From the NCBI RefSeq assembly GCF_000217715.1, contig NC_015666.1, forward strand, positions 2,678,270-2,742,269: a DNA stretch of 64,000 nucleotides, given 5' to 3'. Shown in pieces: positions 2,650-54,208 of the stretch. Source of the stretch: Halopiger xanaduensis SH-6. Its GTDB lineage: Archaea > Halobacteriota > Halobacteria > Halobacteriales > Natrialbaceae. The first letter of the stretch is position 1. Each line of letters starts with the position of its first letter. Position numbers and translations under genes: made by a program. The notes beneath the pieces were generated by a model. The model was not told the DNA's origin and ran no database searches. It saw nothing but the letters and a program-made list of their open reading frames with translations.

Positions 2650-2931
2650 TCACTCGCGCATCGCGACGACGTACGCCGCGACGGCCTGGATGAGGTCGTT
2701 CTTCGTCGAGTCGTCGGCGCCGCGGACGACGACTCGGCCGCGCTGGGCCCACGGCTCTCGAGAGTAGGCTTTGTCCCGCTCGATCGTCGCGTCGTACCCG
2801 ATCTGCTGGACCGCTTTGGCGATCTCGTCGACCGTCGGCTCCTCGACTGCCAGGTCCTGCGAGACGCGCCGCCCTTCGGATCGCGACAGCGTCGCGTCGA
2901 GGTAGGCGGGCCAGATGACGTTCTCGACCAT
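2650..2931 (-). CDS. srp19: Signal recognition particle protein SRP19
   Basis: Binds 7S RNA and prepares it for SRP54 during co-translational membrane targeting. The start [13 protein letters not shown] is the usual haloarchaeal SRP19 N-terminus, followed by the [11 protein letters not shown]-binding segment and a basic-poor C-terminus. The frame is open to a TTG at 2970, but that codon sits inside the A/T-rich promoter element (about 2955-2968), so the ATG at 2931, about 30 bp downstream of it, is chosen as a leaderless start. 93 aa, normal for the family. First gene of the srp19-gar1 unit. Confidence 0.93.
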
Positions 2932-3020
2932 ACGTTCGTCTGCGTAGGCCGTGGTGTAAACCCTTTTCAAAAGACTCGGCTGTAGCGACTCGATCGAAAC
3001 GGGGATCTGAGCCGTATGCG

Positions 3021-4241
3021 TTACTGTCGACGGGCCAGCAGCACCGCGACGGCGAGCGCGCCGACGATCGCGACGGGCGCGCCGAAGCCGGGGATCGAGT
3101 CGCCGCTCGAGCCCTCGTCTTCCGCGTCGTCAGCGGACCCGTCGCCCGATTCTTCGTTGGAAGCGTCGTCCGACTCGTCGGCGGAACCGTCGTTCGATCC
3201 GTTATCGGCCGTCTCGTTGTCGTCGGTGGAGACGTCGGTATCGATCTCGAGGTCGGATTCGGCTTCCTCGTAGGCGTCGGGGTGGACCTCGCTGGCGATC
3301 TCCTCGATCGCGAGGACGACGCGCGGGCCGGGCTGGCTCATGTAGTTGTCGTTGACCGCAACGAACTGCTCGTTCTCGTAGGCGGTCGTCGACGTCGCGG
3401 CCTCACGAACCGGCGGTTCCTCGGCGGAATCGCCGTACACGATCCACTCGGGGTCTTCCTCGACGACAACCTCCTCGCTGATGGTCGCCCAGCCCTCGAT
3501 GCCGGCGTCCGCGCCGAGGTTGTCGACGCCGGCGGTCGTCAGGATCTCGTCTTGGAAAGTGCCGTTACCGGCGGTGTAGCCGTCGCCCATCGCGTAGTAG
3601 GCGAGCGGTCGATCCTCGTCCGGAACCGCCTCGTCGACGACCGAGAGCCGCTCGTCCATCCACTCGAGGGTATCCGCGGCGCCCTCACACTCGCCGACGA
3701 GCTCGCCGGTGAGCCGGACGTTCTCGGCGACGCCGTCAAGCGATTCGCTGGTCGGGAAGACGTAGACCGTCAGCCCGGCCTCGCGGAGCGTGTCGATCAC
3801 GTCGTCGCCCTCGAGGGCGTTGGCCGCGAGGACGACGTCGGGCTCGCGGTCGATAACCTCCTCCGCGACGGGGGTGACGCCGTCGTCTTCGGTGATGTCG
3901 AGGTCGGCGCTCGCATTGAGGTAGTCGGTGTACGGACTGACCGGCATGCCGACGACCTTGTCCTCGGCGCCGATCTCGTACAGCGTCTGCGCGTCGCTGG
4001 GCTGGAGCGCCACGACCGACTCGGGCTCCTCCTCGATCGTGATCTCCTCGCCCGTCGCGTCCTCGAGTGTCAGCGGATACTCACAGGTCGGGTCCGCCTG
4101 CGTTTGTGCTAGCTGTGCTGCCTGTGCCGTCTCCGCCGTCGACTCGCCGGCGGTCGCCGACGGGCTCCCGACGACGCCGGCGGGAACCGCGCCGGCGAGA
4201 AGAACGGTCGCGGTAATCAGCAGGATCAGTAGTCGTCGCAT
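3021..4241 (-). CDS. btuF: Cobalamin-type ABC transporter binding protein, PGF-CTERM anchored
   Basis: 406-aa periplasmic-binding protein of the BtuF/FhuD class: [19 protein letters not shown] opens the first lobe and [18 protein letters not shown] follows. It has an N-terminal Sec-type signal ([19 protein letters not shown], no lipobox) and, after an acidic Ser/Asp/Glu-rich stalk, the tripartite end PGFG...hydrophobic...RRQ. That is a PGF-CTERM signal, which archaeosortase ArtA processes for lipid attachment. Start ATG 4241 is preferred over an upstream GTG at 4256. It is divergent from the btuCD permease and ATPase, so the three form one importer. Cobalamin is the likely substrate; heme or another metal chelate is possible. 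Confidence 0.85.
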
Positions 4242-14665: not shown

Positions 14666-15475
14666 CTACGGATCCGACTCTGACTCCGACTGCTCTGCCG
14701 GCCGTTCCGTCGCGCGCCTGAGCAAGCCGAGCAGCGTGTTGGCCTCGCGCTTCGTGAGATCGGCGCGGCCGTGCACGCGGCGGAGCATCCGCATCGTCTT
14801 CTCCCGTTTCTCGTCGGGGTGGTTAATCTCCTCGAGGAGGTCCGCCCACTGGTCGTAGAGCCGATCGTACATCGGTTCGGGCGCGCGGACGCGCTCGAGG
14901 TCCGGCAGCTGGGTGTCGTCGTCGGACAGCGTCAGCGTCCGGAGTTCGTAGAGCGTGACCGTCGCCGCCTGGCCGAGATTGAGCACCGGATACTCCTCGT
15001 TGCCCGGAATCGAGCAGATCTCGTCGATCCGCGCGAGTTCCTCGTTGGTCAGGCCGACGCGCTCGCGGCCGAATACCAGCGCCGTCGGCGCCTCGACGGT
15101 CGGCAGCCGTTCGGCGAGGTCCGCCGGCGTCGAGAACGGGAACCGGATGTGGCTGCGGTCGTCCTCGTTGGTGACGGCCGTACAGCCGATCGTGTGGTAG
15201 TTCTCGACGAGTTCGTCGAACGTGATCTCGGTCGCGTTCGGGAGAATATCCTCTCGAGCGTGGCCCGCGAAGCCGTAGGCCTCGCCGTCGGGGTCGAGCT
15301 CGGGGGGATCGATCAGCAGGAGGTCCTCGAACCCGAAGTTCTTCATCGCCCGGGCGATCGTGCCGACGTTACCCGGCGACTGGGCGTCGACGACGGCGAC
15401 GGCGGGCGGCGTTCGGTCGTCCGGGAGCGTTGCGTCCGAGTCGTCCGGCCGGTTGGGTGCAGTGTCGTCCGACAT
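14666..15475 (-). CDS. trmJ: tRNA 2'-O-methyltransferase TrmJ (SPOUT)
   Basis: 269-aa SpoU-family enzyme. AVAVVDAQSPGNVGTIARAM (motif 1, conserved N and R), TALVFGRERVGLTNEEL (motif 2) and IPGNEEYPVLNLGQAATVTLYE (motif 3, the SAM-binding knot) are all present. TrmJ methylates the ribose at position 32 of tRNA. An acidic N-terminal tail of about 24 residues and an alpha-helical C-terminal extension (MYDRLYDQWADLLEEINHP) are standard for the archaeal type. It borders the putative origin on the left. Confidence 0.9.
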   Translation of the reverse strand: MSDDTAPNRPDDSDATLPDDRTPPAVAVVDAQSPGNVGTIARAMKNFGFEDLLLIDPPELDPDGEAYGFAGHAREDILPNATEITFDELVENYHTIGCTAVTNEDDRSHIRFPFSTPADLAERLPTVEAPTALVFGRERVGLTNEELARIDEICSIPGNEEYPVLNLGQAATVTLYELRTLTLSDDDTQLPDLERVRAPEPMYDRLYDQWADLLEEINHPDEKREKTMRMLRRVHGRADLTKREANTLLGLLRRATERPAEQSESESDP

Positions 15476-15685
15476 GATTAGCTCTCGTCGTCCGATTTGG
15501 TGGGCGATTGCTCGAGCAACTGTCTGCGAGAGGGCGGCCCGTGAAGCCGAGCAGATGAACCGATCATACGGGAGGTATCGAGCGGGTGTGGAAAAGTGAT
15601 GCGTTCGTGACGGCGGACGGAGTTAGGGTTATGGGACCTCGAGGCAGTTGTGATGTTTGTCGGGTTTACGGATCGGACCGATTTG

Positions 15686-15750
15686 TTCTTCCTTTCTCTT
15701 TCCTTCTCTGTCTCGTTGGACTAGTCTAGTATCTAGTTCTCTAGTACAGT
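15686..15750. other. Candidate duplex-unwinding element: pyrimidine tract plus CTAG cluster
   Basis: A 24-nt run of only C and T (15686-15709) is followed by four CTAG tetranucleotides at 15721, 15726, 15733 and 15741. GC content is far below the surroundings, which fits a melting region left of the ORB-like repeats. Confidence 0.45.
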
Positions 15751-15866
15751 TATTCACCTGCACCGAAGTCTATTACACAAATCGGAGTTGGGATCGCATA
15801 GAATACTCGATCTGTCCTCATTCTCTGGCAGAAATCTCGAGGATTGCAATCTGATAGGGTGGGGAG

Positions 15867-15892
15867 GGACACACCCCCCTCGCGTTTGTAAG
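15867..15892 (-). repeat. ORB-like repeat 1 (degenerate)
   Basis: On the minus strand it reads TTACAAACGCGAGGGGGGTG followed by TGTCCC. It has two mismatches in the TTACATCCGCGA core and the strongest G-string of the five copies. Confidence 0.6.
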
Positions 15893-15921
15893 CCCTTGTC
15901 GGTGGGTGAGGGTTCTGTACG

Positions 15922-15950
15922 GGAACACACCTTATTCGCGGATGTAAAAT
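15922..15950 (-). repeat. ORB-like repeat 2
   Basis: On the minus strand it reads TTTTACATCCGCGA, then AATAA, then GGTGTGTTCCC. The 12-bp core is perfect; the spacer before GGTGTGT is A/T. Confidence 0.7.
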
Positions 15951-15964
15951 ATCGCGTTAGACGG

Positions 15965-15986
15965 GCCGATTCGTGAGAAAATCGGC
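15965..15986. repeat. Inverted repeat at the centre of the ORB array
   Basis: GCCGATT (15965-15971) and AATCGGC (15980-15986) are perfect 7-bp arms around an 8-nt loop. It lies midway between the divergent repeats 2 and 3. Confidence 0.6.
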
Positions 15987-16018
15987 GATTATCTCACTCC
16001 CTACCCACCTATTTCCCG

Positions 16019-16046
16019 TTACATCCGCGACGATGGTGTGTGTGCC
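16019..16046 (+). repeat. ORB-like repeat 3
   Basis: TTACATCCGCGACGATGGTG followed by TGTGTGCC: perfect core, then GGTGTGTG. It forms a divergent pair with repeat 2. Confidence 0.7.
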
Positions 16047-16194
16047 GAACCCGGAATGTGGGTGCCGATCCGAAAATCGCGTTTCCGTAGTTTTTGACTC
16101 GAGTCGATTCGGATTCTTCCTCGCAGTTCAGTTGCTCGCCGAACCTCGAACTCGAATTCCGATCGCAATCCGGCGGAGAGGCGACGTTCGGCAG

Positions 16195-16217
16195 TTACAT
16201 CCGCGACGGGGGTGTCC
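16195..16217 (+). repeat. ORB-like repeat 4
   Basis: TTACATCCGCGACGGGGGTG followed by TCC: perfect core with a five-G string, the copy closest in form to classical ORB elements. Confidence 0.7.
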
Positions 16218-16326
16218 GTCCGTGAACGGCGGGACAGCCGCCCGATTAGACGCGCGATGGCGGCGATTCGTATCGATACCGTCGTTCGTCGGGTATTGTC
16301 GCCACCTAGATGCTAACACAGGCGAT

Positions 16327-16347
16327 TTACATCCGCGATCGATCTCC
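16327..16347 (+). repeat. ORB-like repeat 5, half element at the orc1 promoter
   Basis: TTACATCCGCGA is intact but the G-string half is replaced by TCGATCTCC. It ends about three bases before the TATA-like gctttatttc (about 16351-16360) of orc1, so bound Orc1 could repress its own gene. Confidence 0.6.
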
Positions 16348-16389
16348 ATAGCTTTATTTCAATCCAGCCGGTAGTCGCCCGACACTGCA

Positions 16390-17661
16390 ATGTCCGCGAA
16401 CGACGATCGTGATCCACTCTTTCGGTACGACGATCCGGTCTTCGCCGACGAGCGGCTGCTCGAGATCACGCACCTTCCGGGGCCGGACCGGATCGTCGGG
16501 CGTGACGAGCAGATGCAACGGGTCGCGGACGCTCTCAACCCGGCTATCTTCGGGAGCGAACCCAATCACCTGTTCATCTTCGGCAAGACCGGAACCGGCA
16601 AATCGCTCATCTCGCGGTCGGTCACCAAGCGCGTGATCTCGGAGGCCCGCCGCGACGACGTCACGGTGAAGTACGCCTTCATCGACTGCGGCGAACAGAA
16701 CACGGAAGCGTCGGTCATCAAGACGATCGCCCAGATCGTTAACGAACCCGATCGGAGCGGTATCTCCGTCCCCGACCGCGGGTTGGGGACCGGCGACTAC
16801 TACAAGCGCCTCTGGCAGGCCGTCGACCACTGCACCGACGTCACCATCGTGATCTTGGACGAGATCGACATGCTCGAGGACGACGAGGTCCTCCGGAAGC
16901 TCTCCCGCGCAGGGGAAAATCGGCGCATCTCGGACTCGAGCATCGGCATCATCGGCATCTCGAACAAGATCGACTTCCCCGATCACCTCTCCGAGCGCGT
17001 CAAGTCCAGCCTCTCTCGGGACGAACTCGTCTTCTCGCCGTACGACGCGAACCAGCTCGTCGAGATCTTAGAGAAGCGCCGCGACGCGTTCCACGACGGC
17101 GTGCTCTCCGACGACGTGATCCCGCTGACCGCCGCGCTGGCCGCGCAGGAACACGGGGACGCGCGCAAGGCGATCGACATCCTCCGCAACGCGGGGCGGA
17201 TCGCGAAGAAGCAAAACGATACTCGGGTCACCGCCGAACACGTCCGAGACGCCAAGGAGAAGACCGAGGCCGACCGCTTCAACGAGCTGATCGAGGGCTC
17301 GCCCCAGCAGGCCAAGGCCATCCTCTACGCGCTGACGCTGCTGACCGAGAACAGCTCCGAGAAGGAGTTCCCGACCAAGATCATCTACAACCAGTACAAG
17401 GAGATCGCCCGCCAGCTCGACTTCGACGTCCTCTCCGAGCGCCGCGTGCAGGAGATCCTCCAGGAGCAGAACTTCCTCAACGTGATCCAGTCCGAGCGCG
17501 AGGGTCGCGGACGCGGCCGCGGCGCCCACGCCAAACACCGCCTGCTCGAGAACCCTTCGATCGTCAAGAAGGTGCTGCTGCGCGACGCGCGGCTCGCGCC
17601 GCTCGAGGACGCGGACGCCGCGGATCGCGAGGACAGCGCGGGTACCGGACCGCAGCCGTAA
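16390..17661 (+). CDS. orc1: Orc1/Cdc6-family replication initiator
   Basis: 423-aa AAA+ ATPase that binds origin repeats and loads the MCM helicase. Walker A FGKTGTGKS (residues 64-72), Walker B VILDEID (154-160), sensor 1 around IGIIGISNKIDF, sensor 2/arginine region GDARKAIDILRNAG, and a C-terminal winged helix (about 305-400) are visible. A basic GRGRGRGAHAKH stretch lies near the wing. The ATG at 16390 sits about 30-40 bp after the TATA-like gctttatttc. The adjacent repeats make this the likely cognate initiator of the origin to its left. Which of the several haloarchaeal orc1 paralogues it is cannot be told. Confidence 0.95.
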   Translation: MSANDDRDPLFRYDDPVFADERLLEITHLPGPDRIVGRDEQMQRVADALNPAIFGSEPNHLFIFGKTGTGKSLISRSVTKRVISEARRDDVTVKYAFIDCGEQNTEASVIKTIAQIVNEPDRSGISVPDRGLGTGDYYKRLWQAVDHCTDVTIVILDEIDMLEDDEVLRKLSRAGENRRISDSSIGIIGISNKIDFPDHLSERVKSSLSRDELVFSPYDANQLVEILEKRRDAFHDGVLSDDVIPLTAALAAQEHGDARKAIDILRNAGRIAKKQNDTRVTAEHVRDAKEKTEADRFNELIEGSPQQAKAILYALTLLTENSSEKEFPTKIIYNQYKEIARQLDFDVLSERRVQEILQEQNFLNVIQSEREGRGRGRGAHAKHRLLENPSIVKKVLLRDARLAPLEDADAADREDSAGTGPQP

Positions 17662-49116: not shown

Positions 49117-50586
<1,470 letters not shown>

Positions 50587-50680
50587 ACAGACCGAGACTG
50601 GGGCGCTGCCCCAGCTCAACTTCAGCGGTCCATTTCGCCGCGCTCGTCGTCCCACTCGTTCGGGCCGATCGGGCACCTTT

Positions 50681-50697
50681 GAACTACCAAGGCTCAC
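50681..50697 (+). other. 16S processing stem, 3' strand
   Basis: GAACTACCAAGGCTCAC, perfect complement of 48990-49006. Confidence 0.85.
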
Positions 50698-50724
50698 ACC
50701 TCGTTCCCCTCGTTTCGAGGGGGT

Positions 50725-50796
50725 GGGCCCATAGCTCAGTGGGAGAGTGCCTCCTTTGCAAGGAGGATGCCCTGGGTTCGAATCCCAGTGGGTCCA
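50725..50796 (+). tRNA. tRNA-Ala (TGC anticodon)
   Basis: In the 16S-23S spacer as usual in haloarchaea. Acceptor GGGCCCA pairs with TGGGTCC, D arm TAGCTCAGTGGGAGAGT, anticodon loop TTTGCAA (anticodon TGC), and T loop GGTTCGAATCC. 72 nt, no intron; the 3' CCA is not coded. Confidence 0.97.
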
Positions 50797-50948
50797 TGTC
50801 TCGGAGCGGATTGACGAATCGTTCCCCTTAAGTGGGAACGACTCGTTCGATCTAATCCGAACGCAAACCGATGCACCACCCCGTGCAAACGTGGGTGGGA
50901 AGGGTCAATGCAGCCAGCCGTCTACTGGCCTGCAGATGCGACCGTGTG

Positions 50949-50980
50949 TACGTGTAGTCCAGGCGTCCACTGGACCCGTT
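50949..50980 (+). other. 23S processing stem, 5' strand with internal loop
   Basis: TACGTGTAGTCCA (50949-50961) pairs with 53994-54006 and TGGACCCGTT (50971-50980) with 53975-53984. The 9-nt interruptions on both sides give a bulge-helix-bulge-like site. Confidence 0.75.
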
Positions 50981-51025
50981 CCCGGGTCACTACAAGGTTG
51001 CTTTCGCAACCCAGATCCGATGAAC

Positions 51026-53940
<2,915 letters not shown>

Positions 53941-53974
53941 AACTGAGACACGCATTTGGATCTGTGACCCATCG

Positions 53975-54006
53975 AACGGGTCCAGGCGCGAACTGGACTA
54001 CACGTA
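53975..54006 (+). other. 23S processing stem, 3' strand
   Basis: AACGGGTCCA (53975-53984) and TGGACTACACGTA (53994-54006) complement the two 5' segments. Confidence 0.75.
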
Positions 54007-54063
54007 CATGACGGTCATTCCACCGATATTGGCATGATCACGGTTCGATTCCGTGAATCGGCG

Positions 54064-54184
54064 TTAGGCGGCCACAGCGGCGAGGTTCCTCCCGTACCCA
54101 TCCCGAACACGGAAGATAAGCTCGCCTGCGTATCGGCAATTACTGGAGTGGGCGACCCTCTGGGAACGTCGATTCGCCGCCCCC
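54064..54184 (+). rRNA. rrf: 5S ribosomal RNA
   Basis: TTAGGCGGCCACAGCGGCGA ... CCCATCCCGAACACGGAAGA ... CTGGAGTGGGCGACCCTCTG ... CGCCGCC: all conserved loops of a haloarchaeal 5S rRNA, about 121 nt. The ends pair (GGCGGC with GCCGCC). Confidence 0.95.
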
Positions 54185-54208
54185 ACTCATACTCTCATAC
54201 GCATCAAC

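Follow-up and report, generated by a model that had tools for sequence, protein, structure and literature searches.

A candidate chromosomal replication origin beside an Orc1 initiator gene in Halopiger xanaduensis, with a tail-less box in the initiator's promoter

We analyzed a stretch of 64,000 nucleotides (the window) from the 3.67-Mb chromosome of Halopiger xanaduensis SH-6, whose genome comprises four contigs. The window encodes an Orc1/Cdc6 initiator protein (orc1; 16390-17661, plus strand) of 423 amino acids, made up of an AAA+ part, a lid and a winged helix (TIGR02928 above cut-off; Cdc6_lid and Cdc6_C). The left neighbor of orc1 is a gene for a TrmJ-type RNA methyltransferase (trmJ; 14666-15475, minus strand; TIGR00050 above cut-off), and a complete 16S-23S-5S rRNA operon detected with Rfam (49117-54185, plus strand) lies 33 kb downstream, its direction of transcription leading away from the putative origin described here. 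The closest solved relatives of the window Orc1 are chains 2v1u and 2qby, Cdc6 homologs from Aeropyrum and Sulfolobus.

The intergenic region between trmJ and orc1 contains five repeat boxes that span 15869-16338. A motif scan of the window found the exact core TTACATCCGCGA at 15936 (minus strand), 16019, 16195 and 16327 (all plus strand), and a degenerate copy, TTACAAACGCGA-GGGGGGTGTGT, at 15880 (minus strand). An earlier note on this DNA had described five copies at this place, two on the minus strand and three on the plus strand; the scan agrees on location and strands and finds four exact cores, but the core of box 1 has two mismatches (AA for TC), a variant kept in relatives. From left to right, the boxes are box 1 (15869-15891, minus strand), whose variant is shared by almost every relative and stands there 52-56 bp from box 2; box 2 (TTACATCCGCGAATAAGGTGTGT; 15925-15947, minus strand); box 3 (TTACATCCGCGACGATGGTGTGT; 16019-16041, plus strand); box 4 (TTACATCCGCGACGGGGGTGTCC; 16195-16217, plus strand); and box 5 (16327-16338, plus strand), at -63 of orc1. 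In boxes 1-4 the core is followed by a 4-nt spacer and a GGTGT-type tail, which in box 4 ends GGTGTCC; the single-nucleotide spacer originally proposed before GGTGTGT gives no match in the window even when three mismatches are allowed. Boxes 2 and 3 are convergent, with their T-side ends toward a center near 15983 and their G-tails pointing outward. This is the arrangement that had been described for all five copies, but box 5 departs from it in having no G-tail at all (TTACATCCGCGA-TCGATCTCCATAG).

Shuffled sequence gives 0.35 matches per window to the core with at most one mismatch. Genome-wide, the trmJ-orc1 region holds four of the six exact TTACATCCGCGA cores in 4.36 Mb, as well as four of the five sites that match core and tail perfectly (TTACANNCGCGANNNNGGTG), and the clustering of boxes between these two genes is not a product of chance. 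The fifth perfect tailed box stands isolated at G000:C3:2581187-2581206, 113 kb from the putative origin.

Two segments are candidates for DNA unwinding. The inner segment between the convergent boxes 2 and 3 (15948-16018) is conserved in length and moderately A/T-rich, with an A+T fraction of up to 0.55 against a background of 0.37. A longer A/T-rich stretch (15660-15860; A+T 0.52-0.60) lies outside box 1, and relatives reach about 0.5-0.55 at the equivalent place left of the boxes, compared with the same background. The earlier note had started the feature at 15655; the first box begins only near 15869, and 15655-15860 corresponds to this A/T-rich stretch. The A/T-rich signal is modest and does not fall exactly between the inner boxes. 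A C-rich tract adjoins box 3, here and in relatives, and was considered as a counterpart of the G-rich enhancer of oriC1.

The H. xanaduensis genome encodes about eleven orc1 paralogs. In a tree of Orc proteins, in which some branches are long and the branching order is unsure, the window Orc1 groups with paralogs L002, L003 and L004. Paralog L006 falls instead with Sulfolobus Cdc6-1 (the 2qby chain) and is the oriC1-type Orc1 of this genome. The tree rules out that the trmJ-orc1 locus is oriC1, and its core also differs: the locus lacks the combination of a Cdc6A/Cdc6-1-clade Orc1 and a classical ORB that marks the oriC1 family. The open frame of L006 itself (G000:C3:730.8-732.3 kb) is 572 aa long, and an acidic insertion separates its two matched parts. 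The plasmid-borne orc1 gene L002 is followed downstream by seven ORBs (positions 2718-3292 of its locus), an arrangement like the titration cluster oriC2D of Haloarcula hispanica.

Each H. xanaduensis orc1 gene with clear repeats has its own core, set in the same layout of about 23 nt with a G-rich tail. The window box aligns in register with the ORBs of six sibling orc1 genes, with 10-15 of 24 positions identical, and shares 15 of 24 positions with this genome's oriC1-type ORB; the likeness of its core to the sibling ORBs exceeds that of shuffled cores (P about 0.002). Because of this alignment in register, we regard the repeat as a diverged ORB rather than as an unrelated class. The classical ORB does occur in this genome, beside other orc1 genes. 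The principle that haloarchaeal Orc families are each paired with a particular ORB was described in 2012 by Wu et al. (PMC3528665), who included H. xanaduensis SH-6 among their 15 genomes. Of the earlier proposal of a distinct origin class, what stands is this published pairing of family and ORB; the class itself gives way to an in-register ORB variant. We did not find the core in the available text of PMC3528665, and a literature search on the repeat motif returned no paper describing it. Overall, the locus is best read as an ordinary haloarchaeal Orc/ORB pair, a linked origin-plus-initiator cassette.

Close relatives of the window Orc1 (E at most 1e-150) are found in 99 of 125 Natrialbaceae genomes, in one copy each and with 81-98% identity, and a class-wide sample searched with a looser limit gave an Orc1 match in 116 of 391 genomes. 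Some Natrialbaceae have no copy, so the window-type Orc1 is not indispensable. The search for the repeat beside Orc1 homologs in other haloarchaea, which the earlier note had proposed, bore fruit: the boxes adjoin orthologs in 52 Natrialbaceae-type loci, with order and polarity largely kept, and on plasmids. In 45 of 47 relatives, the starts of boxes 2 and 3 are separated by 80-84 bp. Relatives whose Orc1 is about 95% identical keep this geometry, and it is still recognizable in Halorussus and Halogranum. At the loci examined, Natrialbaceae orthologs, which at 81-98% identity exceed the 80% threshold for a shared Orc family, carry the same boxes. The trmJ gene adjoins the ortholog in 46 loci; since the boxes are kept at loci that lack trmJ (in Halorussus, Halovivax, Halogranum and most plasmid copies), they follow Orc1 and not trmJ. 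Several deposited chromosomes (G033, G045, G078, G079 contig 1) begin within about 2 kb of a window-type orc1 gene, and depositors may already treat this gene as the chromosome start point.

A co-directional rRNA operon lies 27.6-41.5 kb downstream in five of seven other genomes checked, and the remaining two have none within the 40-60 kb read; such a downstream, co-directional operon resembles the setting of Haloarcula and Haloferax origins (PMC4441112). Cumulative GC skew, a noisy measure in this genome, has a weak local maximum at the trmJ-orc1 locus and another at the oriC1-type locus.

The same Orc1/box pair is present on plasmids of Haloprofundus, Haloferax larsenii and Haladaptatus. On a 48-kb circular plasmid of Haloprofundus salinisoli, the window-type orc1 is the only annotated replication initiator. 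We consider this use by plasmids the best indirect evidence that the pair may be able to drive replication. Phage records contained no detectable relative of the window Orc1, and viral contigs no match to the tailed box pattern.

Box 5 differs from the other boxes in a way that recurs across relatives. Counted over related sequences rather than independent events, the core is present in the orc1 promoter at 52 of 52 Natrialbaceae-type loci, at -62 to -64 in 50 of them, and a G-tail follows none of these 52 promoter boxes compared with 204 of 210 distal boxes. In the window, a TATA-like box of orc1 (TTTATT; 16353-16358, plus strand), which falls in near-invariant alignment columns, lies 26 bp from the start of box 5. 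This distance is the same in 48 of 52 loci. In two sister families (loci L170-L194 and L200-L228), tail-less boxes likewise precede orc1, by about 53-62 bp. In L003-type genes (core TACAGCGG) the box lies at -60 to -62, with a tail on 0 of 25 promoter boxes against 184 of 236 distal ones; in L004-type genes, whose promoter core is TCAGTCTGAAC and origin core TCACTCTGAAC, it lies at -53 to -55, with a tail on 0 of 28 against 124 of 223. Measured from where the box register begins, the 26-bp distance to TATA holds in all 16 L003-type promoters with TTTA and in 27 of 28 L004-type promoters. Three Orc families with three different cores share one promoter geometry, in which an initiator-specific box occupies a fixed promoter place. 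The tail-less box is not a universal rule, as paralogs L002, L006 and L008 have tailed promoter-near boxes or another geometry. In loci L087, L088 and L073-L076, outside the core Natrialbaceae, a C-run follows the tail-less promoter box where origin boxes have their G-run.

These regularities suggest that the tail-less box in the promoter acts, apart from the origin boxes, as an operator through which the initiator regulates itself. They strengthen the proposal in the earlier note that the copy at the promoter regulates orc1, which can now draw on the missing tail, the spacing to TATA and the two sister families. At oriC1 of H. hispanica, G-strings are needed for origin function (PMC3936714). 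We lean, by a small measure, toward a two-state code in which tailed cores would serve as helicase-loading origin sites and a tail-less core 26 bp before TATA as an operator, with each Orc1 controlling only its own gene, a scheme that would hold in at least three Orc families. The titles, abstracts and passages searched did not mention a promoter ORB that lacks its tail. The tail-less box offers a concrete hypothesis for how archaeal cells with many parallel origins hold each initiator at its own level: Orc1 self-control may be split from origin firing by one sequence feature.

Taken together, the region very probably serves as one of several chromosomal replication origins of this genome, coupled to an initiator gene of its own, and box 5 would tune orc1. 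The inverted boxes, their conserved geometry, the pair on plasmids and an orthologous locus cloned as an autonomously replicating sequence in Natrinema argue well for the earlier proposal of an origin with a cognate Orc1. In this model, the Orc1 encoded at 16390-17661 would bind the four G-tailed boxes (15869-16217), and the convergent boxes 2 and 3 with adjacent A/T-rich DNA would form the site of strand opening and MCM loading. Box 5 would be bound by the same Orc1 without a role in the origin, and would tune orc1 transcription by repression or activation.

The Natrinema locus bears on the strongest alternative. ARS-5 of Natrinema sp. J7, the predicted oriC9 (PMC5350488), is orthologous to the trmJ-orc1 origin region: both ARS-5 primers find perfect matches in the N. 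gari ortholog (L042), and the pair gives a 2.3-kb product on that locus that spans the origin and orc1. In PMC5350488, ARS-5 was located by a general ORB motif with one ORB counted, and the available passages do not describe the five family-specific boxes. Per microgram, the ARS-5 plasmid pFJ5 yielded fewer than 10 colonies; pFJ1, pFJ4 and pFJ6 gave far more. The authors counted pFJ5 as transformed (PMC5350488). With so low a yield, the origin could be a weak or dormant one, or could be incompatible with its chromosomal copy. It is possible, if distinctly the lesser likelihood, that the window locus is a dormant or vestigial origin whose parts are complete and which fires only if others are lost, with replication normally starting from oriC1 and elsewhere. 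Besides the poor transformation by the J7 ortholog, such a reading could point to the several other orc1 genes with ORBs in the H. xanaduensis genome and to Haloferax mediterranei, in which dormant origins carry complete sets of ORBs (PMC4595724). Against it, the family conserves the arrangement of the five boxes and the sequence of Orc1 at about 95%, and the chromosomal place is conserved, with the rRNA operon downstream; moreover, the active origins in Haloferax are the conserved ones and the dormant one is recent (PMC4595724).

It is improbable that the boxes mainly regulate or titrate Orc1, as at oriC2D of H. hispanica, and that nothing initiates here. ORB-rich regions without origin activity do exist (PMC3936714) and box 5 has promoter geometry, but oriC2D lies downstream of its gene and beside a true upstream origin, the only other strong match to the boxes in the genome is the one isolated copy, and plasmid cassettes carrying the Orc1/box pair need an origin. 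Least credible by far is an unrelated regulator of trmJ and orc1 as the protein that recognizes the boxes: one box does sit at a promoter and Orc1 binding is putative, but the boxes travel with Orc1 and not with trmJ (Halorussus, Halovivax, plasmid copies), and their core shows similarity to the sibling ORBs.

As a chromosomal origin with its own initiator, the trmJ-orc1 locus would extend the known catalogue of haloarchaeal origins, and, with an rRNA operon downstream of it, would give most Natrialbaceae a conserved chromosomal origin in addition to oriC1. It shares with the orc/cdc6-associated origins of Wu et al. (PMC3528665) an Orc1 gene beside inverted G-string ORBs, here an orc1/cdc6 gene of more than 300 codons with at least two inverted ORB-like repeats in the adjoining intergenic region; in both cases the Orc/ORB pair also occurs on extrachromosomal elements. 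With the conserved archaeal origin oriC1-cdc6A it has in common outward G-strings, inverted boxes and a box of about 23 nt in the same register, whereas the Orc1 clade, the core and the neighboring genes differ. Finally, the putative Orc1 operator recalls the E. coli dnaA promoter with its DnaA boxes, which likewise places an initiator-binding box in the initiator's own promoter. DnaA is an unrelated protein, however, and the haloarchaeal promoter box differs in lacking the G-tail of the origin boxes and in its fixed distance of 26 bp to TATA.
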